Assembly: GCA_016198705.1 (NCBI GenBank)
Contig: JACQIA010000047.1
Location: forward strand, 1 to 33,361
Direction: 5' to 3'
Length of the DNA: 33,361 nt
Source: Candidatus Aenigmatarchaeota archaeon
GTDB lineage: Archaea > Aenigmatarchaeota > Aenigmatarchaeia > CG10238-14 > SCSR01
Shown here: positions 5,990 through 32,574 of the stretch, in pieces
Layout: each line of letters begins with the position of its first letter
How positions within the stretch are numbered: position 1 is the first letter of the stretch
Notes under the pieces: model-generated
What the model was told of the DNA's origin: nothing
The model's database searches: none
Seen by the model: only the letters and a program-made list of their open reading frames with translations
Translations under genes and position numbers: made by a program

Positions 5990-6544
5990 ATGGGTAGAAT
6001 TGTCATAGCCGTCTCAGGCCCGCCTGGCGCCGGCACTTCCAGCATAGCAAAAGAAGTTGCAAAAAAATTGAAGCTAAAATATTTCTCGCCTGGCAAAATT
6101 CAGAAAAGCTATGCAAACACAAAGAAAGAAAGTTTGGCGGCATTAAAGGTCTGGCAGACTGCATTAGGCAAAAGCGAAAGGTTCCATCGGGATATTTTAG
6201 ATAAAAAACAAGTGGAGGTTGCGGAGAAAGGCAATGTGATTGTTTGCGGGAAATTGTCGATAAAAATGCTTGAAAATTTGGCCGATTATAAAATCTGGGT
6301 GGACACTTCTTTAAAAGTTAGAGCAGAGCGAGTTGCTAAAAGAGACGGCATTCCACTGAAAGAAGCGGCTGAATTGCTTTCAGAAAGAGAGAATATAGAA
6401 AGAAAAGAATGGAAAAGGATATACGGCTTTGATTATCTTGAGCAAAAAAAACTTGCTGATCTGGTGGTTGACAATTCTAAACTAACCTTGGAACAGGCTG
6501 TAAACAAAATCTTGCAATTTCTCAAAAACAAATCTAGCTCTTAG
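5990..6544 (+). CDS. cmk: Cytidylate kinase, archaeal type
   Basis: The protein begins with a P-loop, GPPGAGTSS (10-18), in the setting typical of archaeal CMP kinases, which transfer phosphate from ATP to CMP or dCMP. The 184-residue length fits. A strand VIVCGKLS, followed by IWVDTSLKVRAERVAKRDG, corresponds to the LID region, and ERENIERKEW matches the conserved arginine-rich helix. It probably follows the zinc-ribbon gene in one transcript and overlaps the convergent small gene at 6534 by 11 bp. Together with CTP synthase at the window start it belongs to pyrimidine nucleotide supply. Confidence 0.88.
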   Translation: MGRIVIAVSGPPGAGTSSIAKEVAKKLKLKYFSPGKIQKSYANTKKESLAALKVWQTALGKSERFHRDILDKKQVEVAEKGNVIVCGKLSIKMLENLADYKIWVDTSLKVRAERVAKRDGIPLKEAAELLSERENIERKEWKRIYGFDYLEQKKLADLVVDNSKLTLEQAVNKILQFLKNKSSS

Positions 6545-6788
6545 ACATCTCATACATTTCTTTGACCATCTTCTCTATAGAGGATATTTTTCCATTCAGA
6601 ACTTCGTACTGCGTTTTCAAAGTATCAAAATGTGTTGTAATTAGATCCATTTTTGCCTTGAGGTTTTCGATTGTTGTTGTTTCTTGGTTGATTTCCAATG
6701 CAGACAGCGGTATTTCTTCGGGCAAATCTTCCGGCGCTTCTTCAGTCTTTCTTTTGAATATACCAAACAAACGTGAAAATATTCCCAT
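6534..6788 (-). CDS. Small coiled-coil protein
   Basis: The 84 residues divide into a basic amphipathic start (MGIFSRLFGIFKRK), an acidic linker and a C-terminal coiled coil from about 38 to 82 with leucine and isoleucine heptads. The amphipathic start could touch a membrane. It is the last gene of a three-gene operon, sharing one base with the preceding gene, so it is likely expressed with the two paralogues at 6788 and 7306. No family recognised. Confidence 0.65.
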   Translation of the reverse strand: MGIFSRLFGIFKRKTEEAPEDLPEEIPLSALEINQETTTIENLKAKMDLITTHFDTLKTQYEVLNGKISSIEKMVKEMYEMSKS

Positions 6789-7303
6789 CAGGTCAACCTC
6801 GGTTTCTGCATTATTCCCAATATAGCTCTCAACTCATTCATAAATTTTTCAATCCTTGTCGCATACATCAAAAGATACCTTCGCCTTATTTGATTGTACA
6901 TCACATAATGGTAGAGGTATAGGAAAGGCACGAAGAGAGCTTTTGATACCGAATCGCTCCCAACTGGATACGAAGTTCTAAGAGTGCCCATAAATTCTAT
7001 TGTCATTCTCCCGCTTGGTGCTGCCGGGTCTTTAGGCTGATGGCCGTAAACTCTGATAACAAAATTTGATCTTGTCCATTTGTCCAATCCCTTCTCAAGC
7101 CTGAATCTAAAATAAAAGCTTTGCGGGTCGCCAGAGTTGTCCCATCTGAAATCATCCTCATACACATCTTCTCCTTTGCCTTGAAAAATTATCTGCAGCA
7201 ATGGGGATATCCTGGTATAAATCCTAAACGGGTCTGGCCCAAAATATGTAACGGACGTAACTTCTTTCGGCACATTAAAGTCGTCTACAATTTCAAACGC
7301 CAT
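6788..7303 (-). CDS. Unknown protein, paralogue of the next gene upstream
   Basis: I use the ATG at 7303, two bases after the upstream stop; a TTG six bases earlier is less likely. The 171-residue protein shares a plan with the product of 7306-7836: FGPDPFRIYTRI, then FRWDNSG, then MTIEFMGTLRTSYP, then FLYLYHYVMYNQIRRRYL. The pattern is a beta-rich front half followed by an amphipathic helix with many tyrosines. No known domain, signal peptide or clear membrane span is visible. The two copies look like an old tandem duplication and may form a heterodimer. Confidence 0.72.
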   Translation of the reverse strand: MAFEIVDDFNVPKEVTSVTYFGPDPFRIYTRISPLLQIIFQGKGEDVYEDDFRWDNSGDPQSFYFRFRLEKGLDKWTRSNFVIRVYGHQPKDPAAPSGRMTIEFMGTLRTSYPVGSDSVSKALFVPFLYLYHYVMYNQIRRRYLLMYATRIEKFMNELRAILGIMQKPRLT

Positions 7304-7305
7304 AA

Positions 7306-7836
7306 TCAAGCCTTTTGCAAAATATTGAAGAAAGACTTTATTTCATTTTGCATAACAATCATCCATTCCCTGCAGTTGTGGAGATACTTGTATCTTGCAT
7401 CCTGATAAAGAACCCTGTGATAGAACATTCTAAAAACCTCATACAGAAAACTCCTCTCCCATACAGTATCTTGCGGATATTCCGTAACAACTCTCCCCTC
7501 AATAATTATAGTAACATTGCCCTCCTTGCCAAATTCTTTGCTTGGTTTTATGTTGCCTGTGATGTCGATGGTAAAATACATGTAAGAAAACTTATCAAAA
7601 TCTTTTACTGCTTCTATTGCTGCTGAAAAGGTTTCGGTAGCGCCGCTTCTATCCCACCTGAACCCCTTTTCCTGGATATTCTCCCTCGGGACAATTACAT
7701 TTCTAGTCAAGATGTCCATAATTTTCGGATAGATATTCTGCGGATTAGGTCCTGTGAATGTAAGCTCAACTCTAGGTCTGTAATGCGTGAGGCAATATTC
7801 CTCCATGTACAGCTTCGTTCTTGCAAATACTGGCAT
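7306..7836 (-). CDS. Unknown protein, first gene of the paralogue operon
   Basis: This 176-residue protein has FTGPNPQNIYPKI, FRWDRSG, VTIIIEGRVVTEYP and FYHRVLYQDARYKYLH, matching the downstream paralogue block by block at low identity. Both keep F-R-W-D-x-S-G, the best fingerprint for a search. It heads a minus-strand operon that diverges, over 56 bp, from the operon encoding the 54-residue membrane protein, the 594-residue protein and the TIM-barrel enzyme. Shared control and function across the two operons are inferred from layout. Function unknown. Confidence 0.72.
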   Translation of the reverse strand: MPVFARTKLYMEEYCLTHYRPRVELTFTGPNPQNIYPKIMDILTRNVIVPRENIQEKGFRWDRSGATETFSAAIEAVKDFDKFSYMYFTIDITGNIKPSKEFGKEGNVTIIIEGRVVTEYPQDTVWERSFLYEVFRMFYHRVLYQDARYKYLHNCREWMIVMQNEIKSFFNILQKA

Positions 7837-7892
7837 ACTCTCTATTATTTTCTTATAATACAGAATATTAATTATTACATATAGGGGAGTAG

Positions 7893-8057
7893 ATGGTTTT
7901 ATTCAAGATAATCGGAGGGTTGTCAGTGGTGTTTGGCCTGTTTTTGATGTTCGGCGTTCCTGCTGCAGGCGAATATCAGCCGCCTGCAATGTCTAAAACA
8001 GCTATATTAATTGGAATATTTTTCGTTATTTTGGGAATTTATCTAATGACTTTATAA
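7893..8057 (+). CDS. Small two-helix membrane protein (54 residues)
   Basis: The frame begins ATG at 7893 and ends TAA at 8055. Residues 3-25 and 35-53 are two hydrophobic helices joined by a short loop with GEYQPP, giving a small hairpin membrane protein. It starts about 56 bp after the divergent gene's start and ends 9 bp before the next gene, so it looks like the first gene of the plus-strand operon. The spacing, hydrophobic pattern and lack of any competing frame support it. No family recognised. Confidence 0.65.
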   Translation: MVLFKIIGGLSVVFGLFLMFGVPAAGEYQPPAMSKTAILIGIFFVILGIYLMTL

Positions 8058-8066
8058 GGTGTTTAT

Positions 8067-9851
8067 ATGGTAACATCAGCATTGCAAGAATTTGTGAATG
8101 TAGTACCGCACCCAACTTCATATACCACGCCTGCAAGAGGCGACATGTTCATACCAGGGGAATTAATTCATGTAGCGCCTATGAACATGCGCACTTATCT
8201 GGATCTATCTTCTTTGCCTGGCGTCAGTTCAAGAATAGTTACACCATTCCTATATTATTTAGGTAGAAACCGCTTCCAAAGGTACAAGCTTTTCGAGTGG
8301 TCTGAGGTTTCTCCAGTTCACGCGCAATTTTATCAGCTTACAATACAGCAAAAACAGCAATTGGAAAATTTAATCAAGCAGGGACTGGCAAGCATTTCTT
8401 CTGCCGTATCTGATTTTGATTTGCTGCTGCACGATCAGAGAAAGTACAGGGAGTTCTTGGATTATTTCGAAGCAATTGAGAAGGGAAAGAAAGTAAAGAA
8501 CGAAGATTTGATGATGAAAAACGAGCAAACGCTGAAGTCTATTTTTATCGATCAGGTTGATGTCCATACAGGCGAAGGCATAGCATTGAAGTTGATTGCA
8601 TCCAGATGGCCCACGATTATAGTTGATTTCTTGAAATTGAAGGATGAAGATACAGATCCTAAAAAAATTGCGGAAAAATTAAAAGTTACAGAAGCAGAAG
8701 GAGTTGTGCTGGCAACTAAGAACAAGCTTTATGTCAAGTGGAAAGAACTTTTTAGGGAGACTGTATTAGGAAGATTCAATAGAATATCGGAACTGGTGGA
8801 AGCCAGAAGAAAGTCCATACAAGAATATAGAAATTATTTAAGGCCAATCATAGAGAGATTCCGTAACATAAGAGAGCTGGGTGAAACAGAAGAGGGCAGG
8901 CGCATATTAAATCGATCAGTCAGCTGGGCTAGGCGAGGAGTTTCCGAAGCCTATTCTATGGATATACAAGTAATTTGGGCTTGGAAAGGAATGTCGTTGC
9001 CTGATTTGTTTAAACGGTCTAAGGAAGCATTCATCGACGAATACGATTTGCTCAAATATCCGAAATTTCCAAAAGGTTTCAAAGAATGGATAAAAACAGA
9101 AATGCCCACATGGTCTGATGAAAACAAAAACAGATACAGGAGAATCAGAGACTATCATACAGGAATAGAGCCTATAGACAAATGGGTGTTGGCTTTCATT
9201 CCAGTAGCCGAGCGTGTTTGGAATGTCAAGCTTACTGCACTCGATATCTTGAGGGCTAGGCAATGGATGATAAACGATGGAAGTGCATTATTCCCCAATT
9301 GGCCGTACTTCAAAGTTTGGGAAATAACGATTGTTAGAGGCGTTACTAGATATGCAGATGGTGTAGAGATAGAAAACCCGATGTTCGACCCGTGGCGCCC
9401 TTACCTAGATAGCCAGAATGTTGTACTAATGCGTTACATAGAGTTGGTTGCAAAAGAAAAGCAGTCGGAAAATTATATAACGGATTTATTGGGAGAAACT
9501 GCTCAAGGAAAAAGGATAGCTGAAATAATAGAAGAAAGATATCCGGAATTGAAAGCAAAATATCCAGAACTGTTTGGCACAACTTTTGTTCAAAGGCCTC
9601 TTGTTACAGAAAAGGAGATGAAGAAGGTAACTGAAACGAAAGAGAGAGTGATAAGCGCGATGACTATGAAGATGAGAGACTGGGCAAATTCTATTACACG
9701 TGGATTGGTCAAGAGTGCTCCCTATGAAACTAATTTTGAAAACTTGATTACAAGACAATATTTCAGGGAAATTAGAGATACGATGTGGGTGCCCGCTAAT
9801 AATTATCTCAGGTCAAGATACGGGATACCGGGCTTCAAAAGTGGTCCTTGA
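8067..9851 (+). CDS. Unknown 594-residue, mostly helical protein
   Basis: I do not recognise this family. It is largely alpha-helical, with repeated charged helices at about 90-150 and 190-290, tryptophan- and tyrosine-rich segments (for example VWAWKG-like and NWPYFKVWEITIVRG), and no signal peptide or obvious membrane helix. Its stop (TGA at 9849) overlaps the ATG of the TIM-barrel gene by one base, so the two are translationally coupled, which suggests partners or subunits. The start is supported by the 9-bp gap after the small membrane-protein gene. A tail of about 50 residues rich in R and Y could contact nucleic acid; that is speculation. Confidence 0.75.
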   Translation: MVTSALQEFVNVVPHPTSYTTPARGDMFIPGELIHVAPMNMRTYLDLSSLPGVSSRIVTPFLYYLGRNRFQRYKLFEWSEVSPVHAQFYQLTIQQKQQLENLIKQGLASISSAVSDFDLLLHDQRKYREFLDYFEAIEKGKKVKNEDLMMKNEQTLKSIFIDQVDVHTGEGIALKLIASRWPTIIVDFLKLKDEDTDPKKIAEKLKVTEAEGVVLATKNKLYVKWKELFRETVLGRFNRISELVEARRKSIQEYRNYLRPIIERFRNIRELGETEEGRRILNRSVSWARRGVSEAYSMDIQVIWAWKGMSLPDLFKRSKEAFIDEYDLLKYPKFPKGFKEWIKTEMPTWSDENKNRYRRIRDYHTGIEPIDKWVLAFIPVAERVWNVKLTALDILRARQWMINDGSALFPNWPYFKVWEITIVRGVTRYADGVEIENPMFDPWRPYLDSQNVVLMRYIELVAKEKQSENYITDLLGETAQGKRIAEIIEERYPELKAKYPELFGTTFVQRPLVTEKEMKKVTETKERVISAMTMKMRDWANSITRGLVKSAPYETNFENLITRQYFREIRDTMWVPANNYLRSRYGIPGFKSGP

Positions 9852-11785
9852 TGGCTGATAAAAAAGAAGAATACATCTTAGGCGTCTCGACAGGCATGTG
9901 GGGAATTGCACACGATCCTAGCATCGGGTTGGGTTTTGGCAGCAAGATACAGCAGATAACAACTTACGGTGTTAGGTTTGTCATGGTCAACATGGAGACA
10001 TCAACATCAACGGAATTTTTTGATCCTGAGTTGGTGGCCAAATTGAAGATATCTATAGACAATTTGAACATCGACTGGGGGATACACGGAGAAATAGGCG
10101 AGCATGTGGCTTTAGAAAATGCACTTGAAATACGCTGGAAACAAAGCCACAGAAGACTGCACCAATACTTGGATTATCTGTATGAATTTTTTGTGAAAAA
10201 CAAGGAGATGGGCAAGAAGTATTTGCCGAAATTTGTGAACATACACATTTCAAACAGCGCAGCACTTGCTTTCATAGTTGAGCGATTCAGGGTTACAAGG
10301 CAATTCACGCTTGATTTTAAAGGAAGATTTGATTGGACAACGCTTTTGGGAGAAGTGCCTGAACTTAAGAAATGGTTTAAAGAAAATTTGATTGGTGGTT
10401 TAGAGATAGCTCGTACAGGATTGCCCAGTTTAGGCATGGAAGCACAACAATATTATATGTCCCCATTTTTCCAGGAATTTATTGAAAAACTTTCGCAGAG
10501 AAGAGGAACAAGAAGATTTAGTCTTGAGACTGGGAGGTTTGAGCAACTTCCCCCTGAAGAGCAGAGAAGATTCGCAGAGCAAGAAGAAGCTATTAGAAGA
10601 CAGGAAGAATTTGCTAAGCAAAGGCTTGAAGAATTAAAAAAAATGACGCCTGACGAATGGATAACACTTGCAGATAGACTATCTCCTGAGGAAAAGGAAT
10701 TGTTAATCGAATACCTTTATAATTTTTGGATGGCTTTTGGAGCAGGAGAATACGGAAGAGGTGTTATGCAAAATGAAGATATAGCATACATGGTTGTTGC
10801 TAAATATCTCGAATTTAAAAAAGACGATCCCAAAGAACCAGTTTGGAAGATTTTCTTCGGCAACAAATCAATGGCAGATCTGGAAAAGGAATGGGGCAGA
10901 TCACTAATCGACCCTAAAACAAAGTATATTTTTATGCATCCGGATATAGTAGCTGCTGTCGGAATTCGATACATAATCGGGCATTTCGAAACTCCTGTGG
11001 GCAATATAATCATACCGGAGTATTTGTCAGAAACTGCAAAGAGACTTAACATCCCTATAGATAAATTCGAGCAGTTTTATAAGAAGAATGCATTTGAAAA
11101 AATCGAGGAACTAAAGGATGTGTTTTTTGCATTTGAAAATCCAGAGCCGATGGAGCCTGGAATGGAAGGGCTGCAAAGAATAATAAGAGCCAAGGATATG
11201 TATAATTTTATTCAGGCTATCCATAAAGTAAGACCGCAGTCTAAAGACTATATAAAATTGGTAGTAGATTTCAACCATTGGCTTAGCAACGCGATAGATC
11301 CAGTAAAGGAATTGGAGACTGTGCCTAAAGATTTTGGCACGCATGTGTACGTAACACATATCTACTATCCATATCCATTGCATTCTCATGAGGCGTTTGA
11401 TATAGGCAGCGATGCGCAAAGGATTTTATACAACTATCACTTCAAACTTAAGGAAAAGGGATTCAAGTTCGGTTATTTGGTTTTTGAGCGGGGTGGAGGA
11501 AAGTCTCCTCAAGAAATAATGAAAAGTTCCATGATTGCTTTGAGGATGGTTGTGGACGAGCTGTTGAAAAATACATCACCCGATAAATTACCTTTATCAT
11601 TCTATGGAGTTTCGCCTGAAGGCTTCTATTCCGAAGAAAGGCAGATGGCTGTTGTGATGGACCATATACGCGATCCGCTAAAAGGGTTGATAATGGTTCC
11701 AGAGGAAACATTCAGATTCATACCAGGCAAGGCAATTGAGAAAGGAAAGAAACCTGAAGAAACAGCAAAAGAAGAATTCAGATAG
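9851..11785 (+). CDS. Endonuclease IV/xylose isomerase-like TIM barrel with large helical insertion
   Basis: The ATG at 9851 overlaps the previous stop (TGATG), giving 644 residues. Family-like metal ligands appear in the right order: H79 (GIHG), H132 (NIHIS), E429 (FENPEP), D473 and H476 (VDFNH), H503 (VTH), H511/H513 with D517, and E546 (VFERGG). The D-x2-H spacing and the final interval match endonuclease IV. Between H132 and E429 lies an insertion of roughly 260 residues, mainly helical and very rich in E, Q and R at 215-285. Known relatives are AP endonucleases or sugar isomerases of about 280-300 residues. The substrate is unknown; a metal-dependent enzyme is well supported. Confidence 0.78.
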   Translation: MADKKEEYILGVSTGMWGIAHDPSIGLGFGSKIQQITTYGVRFVMVNMETSTSTEFFDPELVAKLKISIDNLNIDWGIHGEIGEHVALENALEIRWKQSHRRLHQYLDYLYEFFVKNKEMGKKYLPKFVNIHISNSAALAFIVERFRVTRQFTLDFKGRFDWTTLLGEVPELKKWFKENLIGGLEIARTGLPSLGMEAQQYYMSPFFQEFIEKLSQRRGTRRFSLETGRFEQLPPEEQRRFAEQEEAIRRQEEFAKQRLEELKKMTPDEWITLADRLSPEEKELLIEYLYNFWMAFGAGEYGRGVMQNEDIAYMVVAKYLEFKKDDPKEPVWKIFFGNKSMADLEKEWGRSLIDPKTKYIFMHPDIVAAVGIRYIIGHFETPVGNIIIPEYLSETAKRLNIPIDKFEQFYKKNAFEKIEELKDVFFAFENPEPMEPGMEGLQRIIRAKDMYNFIQAIHKVRPQSKDYIKLVVDFNHWLSNAIDPVKELETVPKDFGTHVYVTHIYYPYPLHSHEAFDIGSDAQRILYNYHFKLKEKGFKFGYLVFERGGGKSPQEIMKSSMIALRMVVDELLKNTSPDKLPLSFYGVSPEGFYSEERQMAVVMDHIRDPLKGLIMVPEETFRFIPGKAIEKGKKPEETAKEEFR

Positions 11786-12656
11786 TTATCAAATACACTC
11801 CAACAATTGCCAGTATTGAACCAATGAGTCTTACTATTCCAGATTTCTCTTTCAGTACAAGCCAGCCTATCAACACAACAAAAACCGGCAATATTTTAGT
11901 TATAGGCAATACTTCTGCAGCTTGACCAAGTGTTAACCCGTAAAATAGCGATAATGTCCCAATTGTAGCTGACAAAGATGCGCCTAGAGACAAAGAAAGA
12001 ACCCTTTTGTTATTCAAAACTGTTCTGAACGTCTTCAGTTGATTCTTGTAATTTACACCAGAATTAATCATAAACAAAATGACAGAAACAAAACTGTACA
12101 TGTAGAAATTGAATAAGGATGGATGTAATGTAAGTGATACGGGTTTTGCGAATACCCAGAAAACAGCCAGCAAGATACCATCAATTGCGATAAATGCTAA
12201 GGCATTTGAAACTTTTGGAATAATTATTTTCCCATCTGTAAGCAATATATAACTTCCAACAATAATAGCTAAAGTTCCGAATAGATCAAAAATTGATACC
12301 ACTTCTGATAACAAAATCACAGCTAAGACAAACGACAGGAAAGTTGTTATCGCCTCTCTAAATGGTATTAATTGAGAAACATCGCCAAGTTTCATAGGTA
12401 TAAAATAGAAAAGTACTGCAGCTGAAAAGACAATAGAAAGTAAAAATATATTATATAAAATTCCGGATGACGGAATACTAAAATCAAAAAGAAACGAAGC
12501 TATTATTAGAGCAAAAACCGCATTTGTCCCAAGCCTGAAAGTCGATATACTCAACGGCTCTATACCCTTATTTTTCAACAGTATTTTGTCCAATATCGAA
12601 ACGACTGAATGAAAAAATGCAAATGAAATTGCAAACAAAAGCCACGGTTCAGTCAT
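11778..12656 (-). CDS. EamA/DMT-superfamily transporter, ten membrane helices
   Basis: I use the ATG at 12656, 23 bp from the shared palindromic TATA box; a TTG 18 bp earlier is less likely. The 292 residues carry about ten hydrophobic helices in two five-helix halves, the EamA duplication of drug/metabolite transporters. SQLIPFREAITTFLSFVLAVILL-type text near the middle of the first half and AAEVLPITKILPVFVVLIGW in the second are the matching end segments. Substrate cannot be told from sequence. The stop overlaps the convergent TIM-barrel gene by 8 bp. Confidence 0.85.
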   Translation of the reverse strand: MTEPWLLFAISFAFFHSVVSILDKILLKNKGIEPLSISTFRLGTNAVFALIIASFLFDFSIPSSGILYNIFLLSIVFSAAVLFYFIPMKLGDVSQLIPFREAITTFLSFVLAVILLSEVVSIFDLFGTLAIIVGSYILLTDGKIIIPKVSNALAFIAIDGILLAVFWVFAKPVSLTLHPSLFNFYMYSFVSVILFMINSGVNYKNQLKTFRTVLNNKRVLSLSLGASLSATIGTLSLFYGLTLGQAAEVLPITKILPVFVVLIGWLVLKEKSGIVRLIGSILAIVGVYLITI

Positions 12657-12674
12657 TTTCTTCAACTCATGCAA

Positions 12675-12705: not shown

Positions 12706-13578
12706 ATGCCTTTGGAAACCTTGGAAGATGAGCTTGAAGAAGTGGTCCTTGCAAAGAGAAAAGAAGAGAAAAAAGATGCAGAAGAACCCAGGCCAATTTC
12801 AAACAAAGAAATGATGGCAAAAGTAATCAAATTCACAAATGAAGCAAGGCAGCAGTATAGCGAACTAATCAAATCTGTATTGATCTTTGGCTCGGCGGTG
12901 CGTGGTGACGCAACCAAGGGAAGCGATGTTGATTTGTTTGTAGTCATAGACGATACAGCCACAAAATCCAGCGAAGATCTGCAAAAAGTTACTTCCCATC
13001 TGCATTTAATCGCAAACGAACTGAAGGATTTGCATGTGCAAACACATACTCTGACAGAATTCTGGCAATGGATAAAAGTTGGCTCGCCAGAGCTGGTTAA
13101 TTTTCTTAGATACGGACTGACGATCTATGACACAGGATTCATAAAACCTGTCCAAAGAATGCTCAACATGGGATTAATACCGCCAAGCGAGGAAACCATT
13201 ATTTTAAAAGCTAGAACTGCCGACACAAGATACAAGGCAGTTGTGCGTGACATAAAATCTATGATATTCGATTTAAGATATTCTGTTTTAGACATCATAC
13301 AGGCAGTTGTAATGCATTATTACAAGGCCCAGCCTGATTATAAAAAAGCTCCCGAGTACATGGAAAAGCTTGTCAAGGAAAAAATGTTGGAAAAGGAGTA
13401 TATAGATAAATTCAAAGAGCTTGATTCCTTATGGAAAAAAATCGACCATAAAGAAATTAAAGATGCAACTCCGCATCATCTGGAAACTGCGTTGCAACTT
13501 GCAAGAGATTTAATTACAAGATTCAGGGCCATGATTCCTAAAGAAATTATCGGGGAAGAAATTCGTTTAGAAGAGTGA
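12706..13578 (+). CDS. Nucleotidyltransferase-HEPN-like fusion, altered HEPN motif
   Basis: Residues 50-150 form a minimal nucleotidyltransferase domain with G62-S63 and D74-x-D76 (FGSAVRG then SDVDLF), as in MNT antitoxins and other Pol-beta-like enzymes. After a linker, about residues 165-275 are a helical bundle resembling HEPN. Where the downstream paralogue has R-K-K-I-E-H, this one has W243-K-K-I-D-H248, so the catalytic Arg of the RNase motif Rx4-6H is lost. A 30-residue charged N-terminal extension precedes the domains. It is four bases upstream of its paralogue, so both are probably made together. Confidence 0.8.
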   Translation: MPLETLEDELEEVVLAKRKEEKKDAEEPRPISNKEMMAKVIKFTNEARQQYSELIKSVLIFGSAVRGDATKGSDVDLFVVIDDTATKSSEDLQKVTSHLHLIANELKDLHVQTHTLTEFWQWIKVGSPELVNFLRYGLTIYDTGFIKPVQRMLNMGLIPPSEETIILKARTADTRYKAVVRDIKSMIFDLRYSVLDIIQAVVMHYYKAQPDYKKAPEYMEKLVKEKMLEKEYIDKFKELDSLWKKIDHKEIKDATPHHLETALQLARDLITRFRAMIPKEIIGEEIRLEE

Positions 13579-13582
13579 TTTT

Positions 13583-14782
13583 TTGTCTAAAAAGAATGAG
13601 ATCAAGAAGGAGGAAAAATCTAAAGAAGAAATAATGGCGGATATCAAGAAATTCTCCGAAGAAGCTCTGAAGAAATACGAAAAATACATCAAGGCAATTG
13701 TGATGATGGGTTCTGTTGTAAGGGACGAAGCCAAGCCAACCAGCGATGTTGATGTATTTGCTATAGCCGACGATACGTCATTTAAGCTAACGAATGAATT
13801 CTTAGACGAAATGGATTCAGAATTGGAAAAGATTGCGCAAAAAATCAACAAAAGCATCTCGATACAACCAACATATACACTCACAGAATTTTGGGATTAT
13901 GCGCGCGTTGCACATCCGATAATCTACAATTTCATAAAAGAGGGGGTTGCAATTTATGATACAGGATTCTTTTCGCCAATAAAAAAACTTTTGGAAATGG
14001 GCAGGATACCCGCCACCAGGGAAGCTATAGAAAGTTACATGGAAGGTGCGCCCAAAAAACTGCAAAGGGCAAAAACTGTAAAATTGCTTATGTTAGCAGA
14101 GGATTGCTATTATGCGGTGTTGAATTCCGCGCAGGCTGTCCTGATGTTTATGGGATTAGCCCCACCAGTGCCAAGCAAAGCATATGATGATGTGATGGAA
14201 TTTCTAATCAAGCCAGGTATACTTGAGCAGCAATATGCCGATTGGCTAAGGGAAATCGTAGATATAAGAAAGAAAATAGAACACAAGGAATTACTTGATG
14301 TCTCTGGAGCTTTTGTTGACGAGTGGATTGATAAATCAGAAAAATTTGTGGACAGGATGTTCGGTTTATTGGGGGCATTGGAAGTAAGGAAGAAAGAAAA
14401 GATTTTAGAAAGAACACATGAAGTTATGCAGAAGGCAGCTATTACTGCGCTGAAAACTTTGCATAAAATTGAAGTGGACCAAAATATTGAAAACCCGGCT
14501 ATAGATTTCAACCAATTGGTTCAGGATTTTGAGAAAAAATTGGGCAGTAAAGTTTCAGACGCTTTCAAGCGTGATTTTATTGATACTAAGCGCATCGAAC
14601 CTTATTATTCCACAATATGGAATAGAATAGAAGAGATGAAAAAATTAGCAAATCAGAAAAAAATTACGGAAATACCTGATAAAGATGTTTATGAAATGAG
14701 GGAATATGTCAGGAAATTAATAAGGGATTTAGCTAAAGTCCTTAAAGAAAAAGAAATTTCTGACGAGGGATTAGAAAAATAA
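13583..14782 (+). CDS. Nucleotidyltransferase-HEPN-like fusion, intact Rx4H motif
   Basis: The frame opens with TTG at 13583, four bases after the previous stop; an ATG at 13634 is the alternative and would still keep all domains. Residues 35-140 are the nucleotidyltransferase domain (MGSVVRDE then SDVDVF, giving G43-S44 and D55-x-D57). Residues about 160-265 are the HEPN-like bundle with R229-x4-H234, the RNase signature. A further C-terminal helical region (about 275-399) is absent from the first copy. In toxin-antitoxin systems MNT and HEPN are usually separate genes; here both are fused and duplicated. Confidence 0.8.
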   Translation: MSKKNEIKKEEKSKEEIMADIKKFSEEALKKYEKYIKAIVMMGSVVRDEAKPTSDVDVFAIADDTSFKLTNEFLDEMDSELEKIAQKINKSISIQPTYTLTEFWDYARVAHPIIYNFIKEGVAIYDTGFFSPIKKLLEMGRIPATREAIESYMEGAPKKLQRAKTVKLLMLAEDCYYAVLNSAQAVLMFMGLAPPVPSKAYDDVMEFLIKPGILEQQYADWLREIVDIRKKIEHKELLDVSGAFVDEWIDKSEKFVDRMFGLLGALEVRKKEKILERTHEVMQKAAITALKTLHKIEVDQNIENPAIDFNQLVQDFEKKLGSKVSDAFKRDFIDTKRIEPYYSTIWNRIEEMKKLANQKKITEIPDKDVYEMREYVRKLIRDLAKVLKEKEISDEGLEK

Positions 14783-19729: not shown

Positions 19730-19890
19730 TAGAAGGAAAAATGATGGCAGAGGTGCCGAAAACCTTGCACCGTTGCAGGATGAAAGGAGGCTCCTAGCAA
19801 CAAGTAAATTAATTTCCTCTGCTTGATTTCCTTGTCACTTATAACCGAACCAGAGGAAAGCTTTGGAGGCATCCCCTCTGGGTGAGAACC
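19730..19890 (+). promoter_or_regulatory. Structured 5' leader of the transposase with switchable pairing
   Basis: From the TATA box at 19702 transcription should begin near 19730, leaving a 160-nt leader. GCAGAGG (19747-19753) pairs with CCTCTGC (19816-19822), and CCAGAGG (19850-19856) pairs with CCTCTGG (19875-19881). The second and third segments can also pair over six bases, an attenuator-like choice. Inner helices include TTGC/GCAA with CTTG/CAAG. The last hairpin ends at the ribosome-binding GGTGA (19881-19885), five bases before the ATG. An 18-codon frame (19741-19797) lies in the first stem. Confidence 0.5.
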
Positions 19891-20898
19891 ATGTCCAAAA
19901 ACACGAATCCCACAGATAGTAATGGTAGTTTAGAAATAAATAATGCTACTCTTAAGAAGGTCTATTCGCAAAACTGGTCACTTTACAACCTATCACAAAC
20001 CAAAGAAAAGATGATGTTCCTTAAGCTACTAAACGATGCCGTAGACTTCCTTGGCATAGAATATGAATACGAGTTCGGCCGTCCGCATGTCCCTATAGAC
20101 GACCTAATCAAGTGCTGTGCAATCAAGGTCTTCAACTGCTTCAGCTCAAGAAGAACCATAGCCGAATTACAATTGGCATACGCCTTAGGCTACATCCGCC
20201 AGTCCTATCACTTCAACACAATATCAAAATATATGAACGACCCGACAATCACACCATGGCTTGAGAAGTTATACAAACTGCTTGCGTTGTCGTTGGTGGA
20301 TACTGAAAGCGTTTTTGCAGTGGACGCCACTGGCTTCGGGTTGCCACATAAAATCAGGTGGAAAGAAATCCGCATGAAGAAACTATATAGGGAAGTCCAT
20401 GACTTCAAGAAACTGCACATCATAAGCGGAGTTCGAACCAACATCATTACTTCTGCAAAAGTCACCAATGGCACAAGAAGCGACAATCCAGAATTCGAAA
20501 ATCTCGTAAGAGCTACCTCAAAGCAATTCAGGATGAAAGAAATACTCGCGGACGCTGGCTACTTATCACGGAAGAACTGCGGAATATCCGAAGAAGTAGG
20601 TGCTGTTCCTTATATCTTTCCAAAAGCAGGAGTCCGCCCAAGGAGCCACGGCTACCGTGCGTGGACAAGAATGATAAGGCTCTGGAAGGAGAACAAGCAG
20701 GCTTTCAGGGAGCATTACCACCAGAGGAGCAACGTTGAAAGCACTTTCTCCGCCTTGAAAAGAAAGTTCTCGGGGTTTGTTAGGAGCAAAAAAGACACCG
20801 CACAGACGAACGAGATTCTCGCCAAGGTTGTCTGCCACAACGTTGCGGTCTTGATTTCCTCTATTTTTTGCCTAGGCGTGGAAGTTGATTTTGACTAA
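19891..20898 (+). CDS. DDE transposase (IS4/IS5-like superfamily)
   Basis: I use the ATG at 19891, five bases after GGTGA; a GTG nine bases earlier is possible. Its 335 residues have an N-terminal helical region (LIKCCAIKVFNCFSSRRTIA) of the kind that binds inverted repeats, then the RNase H-like core: FAVDATGF (first Asp), ILADAGYLS (second Asp) and SNVESTFSALKRKF (Glu with the Y/K-rich signature). All catalytic residues are present and there is no frameshift, so it may be active. It cuts and joins the ends described at 17254 and 20924. Confidence 0.9.
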   Translation: MSKNTNPTDSNGSLEINNATLKKVYSQNWSLYNLSQTKEKMMFLKLLNDAVDFLGIEYEYEFGRPHVPIDDLIKCCAIKVFNCFSSRRTIAELQLAYALGYIRQSYHFNTISKYMNDPTITPWLEKLYKLLALSLVDTESVFAVDATGFGLPHKIRWKEIRMKKLYREVHDFKKLHIISGVRTNIITSAKVTNGTRSDNPEFENLVRATSKQFRMKEILADAGYLSRKNCGISEEVGAVPYIFPKAGVRPRSHGYRAWTRMIRLWKENKQAFREHYHQRSNVESTFSALKRKFSGFVRSKKDTAQTNEILAKVVCHNVAVLISSIFCLGVEVDFD

Positions 20899-24076: not shown

Positions 24077-24398
24077 TTTATCAAGTCTAGCAAACCTCAG
24101 GCTCTTAGTAACAGCGGGCTGAACATCTCGGACGAATCCTTGATGCGTACACCCCTGTCCTATCAATCACATCGTCTATGTGGGCCTTCGTGCTACTACC
24201 GATTCTTGCGAACCAGCAGTAGCAATGACTGACTATTTTTCCGAATGGTTTCGAGCTTAGATGCTTTCAGCTCTTATCCATGTATGGCTTAGCTGCCCTG
24301 CACGCAATAACGACAGGTACACCAGAGGCCACGGGGGGATGTTCCTTTCGTACTTGTCCCTCCTTCCGGTCAGTCAATCAACACCTCTAATAGATAGC

Positions 24399-24432
<34 letters not shown>

Positions 24433-24559
24433 AGCGTCCCCTTTTAACCAGTGGACACCTGTACCCTTGGCTGCTGCTGCACAGCCAGGAGAGGGGGAGC
24501 CGACAACGACGCACCAACGCGCCGGGTCAATGTGGGCTTTCACCGGCCACGGGCCCATT

Positions 24560-24691
24560 TTGGGGGCATCGGTAAAGATGACTCTACCATGTTACCTTGG
24601 TGAGCCTATGGCCTTGAACGTCTTTTTCGATCCGTAGAACTACTACAACAGTTCAACTGGGATAGATGATGGAAAATACTCCACCGATGCT
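24560..24691 (-). other. BHB intron in 23S, peptidyl transferase centre (132 nt)
   Basis: The conserved ACCTCGGGGATA is interrupted right after U2449 (E. coli numbering) and resumes with the helix-89 region. Central helix GGGG/CCCC, bulges ATA (24693-24691) and AAA (24561-24559), inner helix GCATCGGT/ACCGATGC. Splicing gives GGGGAT-AATGGGCC, keeping A2450 and A2451. The canonical form GGGGATAACAGG is one base longer, so the exact 3' cut or nearby bases are uncertain. Confidence 0.78.
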
Positions 24692-24835
24692 ATCCCCGAG
24701 GTAACTTTTCTTATACCACCGACAGCCATTAAGGCCGTTCGATGTATCGCTAACCCATGCTTTCGCAGCTGAATCCCTTGCTTTTCGGGATACAGTCAGC
24801 CCAACTTTTGCGTTTACACTCTACTCCGGATTTCT

Positions 24836-24928
24836 TGCGGGCAACAAATGCCTATATTGTTCATTAGTTACCTCCCTACTCATCTTTTTTCATACTGGAA
24901 TGGTTTAATCATCACCAGCACTTGCTGT
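24836..24928 (-). other. BHB intron in 23S, domain V near E. coli 2300-2315 (93 nt)
   Basis: Central helix CGGG/CCCG, bulges TCA and CAA, inner helix CAGCAAG/TTTGTTG. Cutting after the second base of each bulge joins CCGGGTC to AGAAATCCGG, restoring the archaeal hairpin GGGTCAGAAACCC almost exactly. This junction is strong support for the BHB reading of the whole locus. Confidence 0.88.
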
Positions 24929-25132
24929 GACCCGGATGAGTTGAGCTTTGGGATTCCTTGATATCTTCTCAAGGAAGTACCACCCCAGCCGAACTGCCCA
25001 TCTGACGTTGTCCTATTGCTAGTAAGCAACACAGTTTTGAAAGGGTAGTGTTACACTTTCCTCTCAGCTTTCGGCCGAAGCCTAAGCCTTAGCGAGTACT
25101 ACCTACTCTATGCAACCAAAACCGTATCGCAG

Positions 25133-25163
<31 letters not shown>

Positions 25164-25167
25164 ACGT

Positions 25168-25204
25168 ATTGGGTTATCGAGATAGATAATTCTACATCAA
25201 TAAT
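25168..25204 (-). other. BHB intron in 23S near E. coli 2054 (37 nt)
   Basis: Central helix TGGG/CCCA, bulges AAA and ATA, inner helix beginning TTATTGA/TCGATAA with a longer imperfect stem beyond. Splicing gives AGTGGGAA-ACGTAGACCCC, the same length as CAGCAAGACGGAAAGACC up to that point. In that alignment 2057 is C and its partner 2611 is G, a compensated pair, and 2058 is G as in other archaea. Confidence 0.75.
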
Positions 25205-26675
25205 TTCCCACTAGAGGTCTCTGGCCTATTCACCAGAAAAGCAATTTCGCTGGGTACCAACCCAAGACAGCGGGCAAGTCGTTAAGCCATTCAGACAGGC
25301 CGTTAATTAAACGGCAAGGGATTACGCTACTTTACGACAGTCAGAGTTACTGCCGCCGTTTACTGGGGCTTCTTCCTGTTGAAACAGGGCTTGACACACC
25401 AGTACTGGGCAGGCATAAGAAACTGTACTCAAGCTTTCGCTTTAGCAGTCTCCATCGTTTTTGTTAAACAGTCGCTTGCCCCTTGTAACTGTGGCCTGCT
25501 ACTAGCAAGTAACAGGCATGGCTTCTAGCGAACATACACCACTAATTTGCCGATTTCCTTAGATTGGGTTCTCCCACTCCACCATTGCCTTCTCAGCAAC
25601 TCCACCTGTGGCGGTTCTCGGTATGGACATGAAGGATCCTTGCAAATTCCCTTTTCACGGGCTCTCGGAATCAGCCGAACTCTGCATACGCAGAGCTGTT
25701 CCTGCATTCACCTGCTTCTCCTCATTACAAGACTCCGCAGGCTTCAGCAGTTAACTTGCGTCAGCTCATCCAAAAGCGTCAGGAATTTGCCTTGTGTTGC
25801 CACACGTACCTTCATGGCACCGGAATATTAACCGGTTTCCCATCAAGTACTCCAGTTGAGGGTACCTTTAGAGATCAGCTAACTGCCAGCTGATGAACAT
25901 TGCTGGCAAACCCTTGGAGTTTAGGCGACTGGGAATTTCACCCAGCTCTGTTGCTACTTTTGGCAGGATCTTCAATTCCACACGGTCCACTTCTGCTTAC
26001 GCAGAAGCTTCTATCCATGCAGAACGCCTCCCTACCCCTGCTTTCGCAGTCTAGGGTATCGGTATTTAGCTTAGTCTCTTCCATCTTCAGGGCCAGAATT
26101 CTCGGTAGCTAAGCTGTTACGCATTTCTTAGCTGATGGCTGCTTCTGAGCCTACAGCGCTACTGTCTGAGAATTCCAACTCCCTTCTTCGTTTAGCTAAA
26201 ATTTAGAGACCTTAACCTTAGGTTGGGTTGTTCCCCTTGTGGATGCCGAGCTTACCCCAGCACCCTCACTCCCGCCTTCTACGCTTGTACCTGGTTCGGA
26301 GTTTGACAGGACAGCTGAACCTTTCGGTCCTTGACAATCCAATCAGTAACTCTACCCAAATACATAGCTCTGGCGAGGCTGCACTAACATGCATTTCGGG
26401 AGGAATCAGCTATCCGGCGTCTCGTTAGGCTTTTCACCACTAATCCTAACTCACCCGAGAGGATGTCAGCCCATCACCGGTAGCAGGCTTCCATCTCTCT
26501 TTCGAGAGACTTCGCCTTGGTCAGGATTAGATCGACGCCCTTCGGATCTTGCCCTAGTGATTTCCCGCCCTTTCAGACGGTGTCCCATTCTCGCGATACG
26601 GACAATTGCTTTCGCTTTGGTTTCATGGCTTAAACCACTTAACCTCACCACTAAGACAAACTCCCTGCCCCGTGT

Positions 26676-26724
26676 ATTTCGTTAGAGGAAATGAAGAAAC
26701 AACAATACTTACACTTCATCTAAT
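26676..26724 (-). other. BHB intron in 23S, domain II near E. coli 675 (49 nt)
   Basis: Central helix TTCG/CGAA, bulges AAA and ATA, inner helices TTAG/CTAA and ATGAAG/CTTCAT. Splicing joins CCGTTTCGAA to ACACGGGGC, restoring the conserved hairpin CCGTTTTGAAACACGG just before CAGGGAGT. Confidence 0.86.
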
Positions 26725-27356
26725 TTCGAAACGGACGCTATGACCCTGTAAGCTGCTTTTAGTTGCCTTCAAGCAGCACCTTCCGAGCCATAGCTGACTA
26801 ACTCCATCTTGGTTTCAGGCTCTTTTTACCCGGCTTTCGCCGTACTTTTCAGCTTTCTATCACTATACTAGTGCGCTATCGGACTCTACACATATTTAGA
26901 GTTGCCAGTTAATGCCTGGCAGATTCCTGCTCCATATCCAAGGAACAGTATTCAGGATACTTGGAATCCTCTTTCCACCCTTCCTTTACGGGGCTATCAC
27001 CCTCTTAGGCAGAGCTTTCCAGCTCATTCGAGTCGGCTGGTTAAGAAGTACCCAAGTCCTACTACACCACATCCATCCATAATTTCTTATGGCGTTCGGT
27101 TTGCTCTGTTTCCCTTTTACTCGCCGTTACTAAGGAAATCTCTATTGGTTTCTTTTCCTGCGGCTACTAAGATGCTTCACTTCTCCGCGTTCCTTTTCCT
27201 TTCGGAATTGGCCGAAGCCAACGAATCGCATTCAGATATCCCAGGGTCAAAACCTCCTTGCGGTTAACCTGGGCTTATCGCAGCTTGGCACGTCCTTCGT
27301 CAGTGTATAGAGCCGAGCCATCCACCAAGTGGATACTGTTGACTAGACCTTTTGAC

Positions 27357-28123: not shown

Positions 28124-28195
28124 TGGACCGATCGGGATTTGAACCCGAAGCCTCTTCCTTGCAAGGGAAGCGATCTACCGTTGATCTATCGGCCC
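28124..28195 (-). tRNA. tRNA-Ala (anticodon UGC)
   Basis: Acceptor GGGCCGA/TCGGTCC, D-stem GATC/GATC, anticodon arm CTTCC-CTTGCAA-GGAAG with TGC, and T-arm CGGG-TTCAAAT-CCCG fold without mismatch. The discriminator is A, CCA is not encoded and there is no intron. A TATA-like CTTTAAATCC at 28219-28228 lies about 24-30 bp upstream, so the tRNA has its own promoter. In many archaea this tRNA sits in the 16S-23S spacer; its place before 23S is a trace of that order. Confidence 0.96.
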
Positions 28196-31731: not shown

Positions 31732-32574
31732 TCATGATGATGAGTAAATAATTTGTCTACCTGCGCGGACTCTCTTAATCATGCCACTATCTGCTAAGCC
31801 TTTCAATTTTCTCTGAATTCTATAATGAGGAGATTTCAAAAGCTGTATAAGTTTAAACATTGAACAAGGCTCTTTTTTAAGAGCACTTAAAATTTCTTCC
31901 TCCGAAGGTATCTTTTCACTTTTGTATGTCTTTATGATTATGTCTAATTTTTGAGTCTTTTCCATATCAACAAATCCGATTAGTGATTTGAACTTTTCCA
32001 AATCTTTAACATAAAAATAAAAATCATCCTTTTTCATATCATGCTTGACTTTAGGTTTTGTGCACTTAATTCCCAATTCTGATAGAATCTTGTGTACAAC
32101 TCTAACAACTTTCAATCCTTTATCATCCTTAACCTGTTTGAATTCTATTTTACCTTTTAGATCTACCGAACCTTCTGCATCAAACAGACCTTTAACAAAT
32201 TCAATTTTTTCAGACCTTGTTTTATGCATTATTTTTTTATAGAATTCGCTAAACTGTGTAGCTGTTTCTTTCGAAGAAATCCTAATTCTAAGTTTTTCAA
32301 ATGTTGCATTCCAAGGACTTGAATTTGGTCTTAATTTAATTTGTACTTCTGGTATATCCAAGATTTTACTCCATTTTTCTTTATCCGCTGTTAACGAATA
32401 CACATCTACCATTATTCTATCAACTGGAAATTTTAATTCCTGCTTTATAGATTTGGCTACCTCTTTTAAGATAAATTTAGACGAATTGTAAACTTCCACA
32501 TGTCTATCATCTAAATAACCGTCTCCTATAGTAATTCCTACTAACCATGCTGGAATTGTTGCGACTACAGACAT
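31732..32574 (-). CDS. Free-standing LAGLIDADG homing endonuclease with C-terminal winged helix
   Basis: Two LAGLIDADG motifs occur: WLVGITIGDGYL (10-21) and FVKGLFDAEGSV (126-137), each with the catalytic acidic residue, so the protein is a one-chain, two-domain nuclease. Residues about 212-280 (EEEILSALKKEPCSMFKLIQ and SPHYRIQRKLKGLADSGMI) are a winged-helix DNA-binding tail. It is not inside an intron: it starts about 120 bp after the 16S 3' end with its own TATA box. LAGLIDADG enzymes spread archaeal rRNA introns, so a link to the seven introns here is likely but unproven. Confidence 0.88.
   Translation of the reverse strand: MSVVATIPAWLVGITIGDGYLDDRHVEVYNSSKFILKEVAKSIKQELKFPVDRIMVDVYSLTADKEKWSKILDIPEVQIKLRPNSSPWNATFEKLRIRISSKETATQFSEFYKKIMHKTRSEKIEFVKGLFDAEGSVDLKGKIEFKQVKDDKGLKVVRVVHKILSELGIKCTKPKVKHDMKKDDFYFYVKDLEKFKSLIGFVDMEKTQKLDIIIKTYKSEKIPSEEEILSALKKEPCSMFKLIQLLKSPHYRIQRKLKGLADSGMIKRVRAGRQIIYSSS

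Follow-up and report, generated by a model that had tools for sequence, protein, structure and literature searches.

Gene content of the locus

The window, by which we mean the whole 33,361-nucleotide stretch of DNA analyzed here, comes from an Aenigmatarchaeota genome of 1.08 Mb in 102 contigs (96.8% complete). Each of the six open reading frames that the initial annotation had placed at 6534-11785 was found at its coordinates (Table 1), and the promoter region it took to be shared by the divergent genes is indeed a gap of 56 bp, with a TATA-like TTATAAT and, ahead of TM, a Shine-Dalgarno-like GGGGAG, both read by eye. The true start of TIM is probably the ATG at 9851, which overlaps the H594 stop codon by one base (...CCT TGATGG...); TIM residue numbers are counted from the TTG at 9848. 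The span itself had been drawn too short. The usual layout in relatives, CC< FB< FA< TM> H594> TIM> NTase>, with the nucleotidyltransferase (NTase; nt2 in the window) immediately 3' of TIM in most of them, makes the NTase genes at 12706-14782 part of the unit, which thus runs past 11785. The same layout marks the intervening eamA gene as peculiar to the window; it had no counterpart between TIM and NTase in the relatives examined and is probably a local insertion.

Table 1. Features of the locus, with positions in the window
Feature	Position	Strand	Description
CC	6534-6788	(-)	84-aa protein, accessory
FB	6788-7309	(-)	173 aa, FRWD-family paralogue B; starts at TTG, or possibly at an ATG further downstream
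FA	7306-7836	(-)	FRWD-family paralogue A, 176 aa
FA-TM divergent intergenic region	7837-7892		56 bp, read by eye
TM	7893-8057	(+)	54 aa, two hydrophobic stretches forming a membrane hairpin, accessory
H594	8067-9851	(+)	594 aa, mostly helical
TIM	9851-11785	(+)	644 aa, endonuclease IV/xylose isomerase-like barrel; ORF from TTG, 9848-11785
eamA	11778-12674	(-)	EamA-family transporter, between the TIM and NTase genes
nt1	12706-13578	(+)	nucleotidyltransferase-domain protein, 290 aa
nt2	13583-14782	(+)	399 aa, nucleotidyltransferase with a helical, HEPN-like domain at its C terminus

Elsewhere, the window carries an LSU rRNA gene (24083-27350, minus strand), a tRNA gene (28124-28195), and the 3' end of an SSU rRNA gene (from 32864 on, minus strand), several kilobases apart and with protein genes between them. 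A putative homing endonuclease ORF (31732-32574) lies among these rRNA genes, and an IS5-family transposase gene (19882-20898) scored under the curated cut-off.

Conservation and distribution of the gene neighborhood

H594, TIM, and FA were each present in 38 of the 39 near-complete genomes of the class, and almost every genome of the group had a cluster of five to seven of the genes. Layout was counted over 61 loci. TIM lay immediately 3' of H594 on the same strand in 49/49 loci having both, and the two genes overlapped or were separated by 20 bp or less in 34 of these. The FRWD genes, two per locus, faced away from H594 in 42/42 loci having them, while TIM and NTase shared a strand wherever both occurred (40/40), 34 times within 300 bp of each other. 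TM homologues accompanied FA and H594 in 41 of 42 loci; CC, the least conserved member, was found adjoining FB in 29 of the 61 loci examined (29 of the 42 with the FRWD pair). Departures were seen in f12, where TIM was unlinked from the locus, and in f8, f18, and f20, where H594 was shorter and FA, when seen, lay far from it. When 84,980 species were scanned for TEYPQDTx[WF], a motif of FA, 90 stretches came back, 88 of them coding for relatives. The records were nearly all titled Aenigmatarchaeota, with a few under other DPANN names, which places the window in that phylum. One genome of the same class (G040, 94% complete) was without H594, TIM, FA, and NTase, making it a candidate for natural loss of the whole system.

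The co-occurrence search proposed in the initial annotation was positive outside the phylum as well. The H594 and TIM profiles were searched against 392 archaeal genomes, including 236 from outside the phylum, and strong matches (E<1e-30 for H594, E<1e-15 for TIM) were obtained in 23 and 24 of the 236, respectively, with both in 23. The only TIM-positive genome without a strong H594 match, G355, has a genus-mate, G302, with both. The association gives a Fisher P of 5e-31, a value that is inflated by relatedness and overstates independence, because the positive genomes fall in nine families. FA/FB were present in the H594/TIM-positive outside genomes tested, and NTase was present in most. The breadth of the system, the whole phylum plus other DPANN lineages, thus exceeds what had been envisaged.

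Linkage outside the phylum varied. In G302, H594, TIM, NTase, and FA/FB were all present on four separate contigs; in f44, the genes NTase-TIM-CC-FB-FA-TM clustered, with H594 located elsewhere; in G305, H594 and NTase adjoined; and in f49, a lineage with unusually acidic proteins that is probably Nanohaloarchaeota, H594-TIM-NTase were linked and FA/FB lay ahead of the gene for DnaG primase. TM homologues were also found in genomes of f44, f75, f96, and f101 and were not detected in the acidic-proteome lineage. A wider H594 profile matched further small DPANN genomes that had no TIM at E<=1e-6; the H594 family is thus broader than the full system, and H594 can evidently work without TIM. In two loci with FA/FB elsewhere (L222:7936-9581 and L224:5552-6862), the divergent slot before H594 is occupied by two or three small proteins that are paralogues of one another; each begins with an amphipathic stretch, followed by a disordered middle and a C-terminal coiled coil, and they resemble CC in the manner of analogues.

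The genes found nearby are information-processing ones (ABCE1, YchF, NusA-like, TFB, and Trm1), and such housekeeping neighbors may merely reflect ancestral order. That the locus itself consists of unrelated housekeeping genes, together only since reduced genomes hold that order, is an explanation we regard as very unlikely: ABCE1 and YchF are often retained as neighbors too, but the co-occurrence holds where the genes are unlinked, the f44 cluster is retained without H594, and G040 is without H594, TIM, FA, and NTase jointly. With homologues keeping a common neighborhood (49/49 and 42/42) rather than being scattered, the view that the genes form one system is well supported. The initial proposal of one system is upheld; it had overlooked the nucleotidyltransferase and the fact that the core genes are more widely present than TM and CC.

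Other neighbors were also seen. The FRWD pair follows CBS-domain genes and lies directly 5' of the DnaG primase gene in two other families (L258:4791-8150 and L259:4425-7601). At loci such as L214, L216, and L220, a gene for a Hef-type helicase/nuclease (f44 and f102) or one for an HhH-GPD DNA glycosylase (f44 and f75) adjoins H594; both links were set aside, the independent cases being too few.

The candidate enzymes and their partner proteins

Single-sequence searches of Pfam, NCBIfam, and PDB with FA, FB, H594, and TIM gave nothing useful, and the TIM family was recognized by profiles only. By these profiles, TIM is a member of the endonuclease IV/xylose isomerase superfamily: PF01261 (AP_endonuc_2) matched 33 of 53 family members (best E=8.9e-17), and the TIM profile found MJ1311 (3wqo; E=7e-5) as its best PDB match and endonuclease 4 at E=0.001. 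When the long insertion (residues ~190 to ~415) was taken out, hhalign aligned TIM with 14 endonuclease IV sequences (94.7%, E=6e-8); a global alignment with the insertion retained covered the N-terminal half alone.

As the reference for the metal site, we used the nine established zinc ligands of Escherichia coli endonuclease IV. Eight of them align with TIM residues H80, H133, E430, D474, H477, H504, H514, and E547, so that the site described earlier as almost complete was borne out; a fold lacking the clustered ligands, which would have spoken against the proposal, is not what was found. The eight were retained in all phyla tested, and those at 80, 133, 430, 474, and 547 were identical in 68/68 sequences from several phyla. 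The ninth, D229, corresponds to TIM position 512, which varies (H/G/A/Q) and is not conserved; H379, in the insertion and conserved in 67/68 sequences, might replace it. By homology, TIM is likely to be a two- or three-metal phosphoester hydrolase. It differs from endonuclease IV/Nfo (TIGR00587; PF01261), with which it shares the barrel superfamily and these ligands, in being double the size, in its H379-bearing insertion, in the variable D229 position, and in having fixed partners; the MJ1311-type archaeal barrel, in turn, is uncharacterized and has 293 residues without the insertion. TIGR00587 (nfo) was unmatched in the window genome at E<=0.001. Most TIM-bearing genomes also have a separate short endonuclease IV-like protein, and the idea of TIM as the sole AP endonuclease was dropped since most relatives have another such barrel.

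The same barrel is found in DUF692/MbnB metalloenzymes, of which MbnB is an iron enzyme with a partner protein, MbnC (PMC8888699). TIM has a fixed partner too, H594, and could on that model modify a peptide or protein. We consider this very unlikely, as DUF692 was absent among the 25 Pfam families listed of the 41 matched by any TIM member, while AP_endonuc_2 matched 33 of the 53 TIM proteins, and a small conserved precursor peptide gene was not seen in the layouts.

For nt2, both the catalytic motif and the domain match were found: GS...SDxD is invariant in the family (G43, S44, S54, D55, and D57), and PF01909 (NTP_transf_2) matched at E=1.3e-9. Its nearest solved relatives are kanamycin nucleotidyltransferase and Mnt, and NTase is predicted to transfer nucleotides. 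This similarity to minimal nucleotidyltransferases, together with the Rx4H sequence (RKKxEH; compare Rx4-6H, the HEPN RNase motif) that most Aenigmatarchaeota copies retain in the helical half, fits a regulatory or toxin-antitoxin-like module. In it, NTase would attach nucleotides to a protein or an RNA, in the way MntA acts on HepT, the HEPN-like half would cut RNA, and TIM would take the mark off. A DPANN MNT-HEPN fusion whose toxin-antitoxin origin is discussed has been described (Makarova et al. 2019; PMC6393860). Such a module is nonetheless unlikely. Rx4H is absent in the other lineages aligned (L222-L229), and the universal single-locus conservation stands against the patchiness of toxin-antitoxin systems, as that paper notes. 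Anti-phage defense models matched none of CC, FA, FB, TM, H594, and TIM, giving only generic nucleotidyltransferase-domain matches with nt1/nt2.

H594, which had been called helical, is mostly so, but several strands are predicted as well (295-309, 414-428, and 434-449). It carries the conserved motifs HDxRKY, FIDQVDxHTGEG, PTIxxDF, and K..LYxxWK, with D165, F188, L215, and W225 invariant across lineages. Its model (pLDDT 83) matched nothing among PDB and viral folds at E<=0.001; the best viral fold had E=0.02 at low probability, and PHROGs gave stray matches only (best 1e-4, 2/52 members). A viral portal or capsid origin was dropped on these searches. DUF7902, proposed as a relative from one weak match, was dropped as coiled-coil noise because its matches were below the cut-off everywhere and also occurred in control genomes.

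The tandem duplication reported for the FRWD family is real, since a search with FA recovers FB in the same genome (E=1.1e-16, 30% identity). The deepest split of the tree separates FA from FB (SH-aLRT 91, midpoint root), and members from other phyla occur on both sides; the duplication therefore probably predates those lineages. In FA, TEYPQDT is nearly invariant, and the AF2 model (pLDDT 92) has strands followed by a 46-residue helix in a helix-grip-like arrangement.

The Foldseek neighbors of FA were SRPBCC, START, and PRELI/Ups1-type proteins, which share its strand order and long last helix. If FA/FB were lipid carriers of this type, anchored by TM and CC, TIM might cleave a phospho-lipid or polyprenyl-phosphate bond, and the TM hairpin adjoining H594 in most loci agrees with that. 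This membrane or lipid role is, however, unlikely. The TM-scores were only 0.16-0.36 (about 0.25 for the best fold match, in spite of E=1.6e-4), there was no sequence match, and the last helix differs in its 46-residue length. The conserved face of this helix is polar (E133, R136, H140, Y144, and R148), with no obvious lipid pocket; lipid genes are absent nearby, and the acidic-proteome lineage has no detected TM. CC consists of an N-terminal amphipathic stretch, MGIFSRLFGIFKRK, and a C-terminal coiled coil, its only profile-database match being a weak one to FlaC_arch (E=0.006).

A possible machine acting on nucleic-acid ends

We propose that the system has a core of FA, FB, H594, TIM, and NTase, with the TM hairpin and CC as accessory members, and that it would have been kept vertically within DPANN. 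The core proteins would share one complex or pathway. H594 may serve as the scaffold. Part of the complex may be tethered to the membrane by TM, perhaps with help from the amphipathic N terminus of CC, and FA/FB, as an obligate pair, could deliver or recognize the substrate. TIM would hydrolyze phosphoesters and NTase would transfer nucleotides; together they could shorten and then restore nucleic-acid ends, or place and remove marks on them, in housekeeping RNA or DNA maintenance. Two intact active sites in combination with a scaffold, a hairpin, and the FRWD pair would fit a machine for editing ends or marks, and the translation and transcription neighbors, with DnaG in two lineages, favor nucleic-acid end processing.

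Nucleic-acid ends as the substrate of the system are a guess. A DPANN-restricted complex of a metal phosphoesterase, a nucleotidyltransferase, a scaffold, and paired accessory proteins that acts on such ends is a tentative reading, somewhat short of an even chance, and for TIM and NTase acting together we hold this substrate class with slightly less confidence still.

Some of the parts come from known superfamilies. Taken as a whole, the system matches no known kind, and no description of it was found in the literature available as open-licence full texts. Two DPANN-wide priority unknowns with housekeeping context are listed by Makarova et al. 2019 (PMC6393860): cls.004259 (MNT-HEPN, NEQ050), which probably corresponds to the NTase family, and cls.004340 (alpha-helical, NEQ484), which perhaps corresponds to the H594 family. 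They are reported there as separate genes, and the text makes no link to TIM or FA/FB. Some genes of the locus may also belong to the Aenigmarchaeota-specific protein module 128 of Castelle et al. 2021 (PMC8204110), which similarly comprises phylum-specific families without functional prediction and is not proposed in the text to be a system.

Separate genes of unknown function, including priority families of 2019, thus become one system with two candidate enzymes. DPANN genomes are stripped down, yet in this phylum they almost always devote six to eight genes to it, with the same core kept in several other DPANN lineages. Conservation this strong in unannotated genes suggests that these host-dependent cells depend on a basic process that has yet to be understood. 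It could be, though we would not yet wager on it, a housekeeping machine found only in DPANN, performing a step of nucleic-acid maintenance that other archaea do otherwise or need not do. Such a machine, if our tentative reading holds, would include a new insertion-bearing barrel subfamily, the H594 scaffold with no known fold relative, and the obligate FRWD pair.
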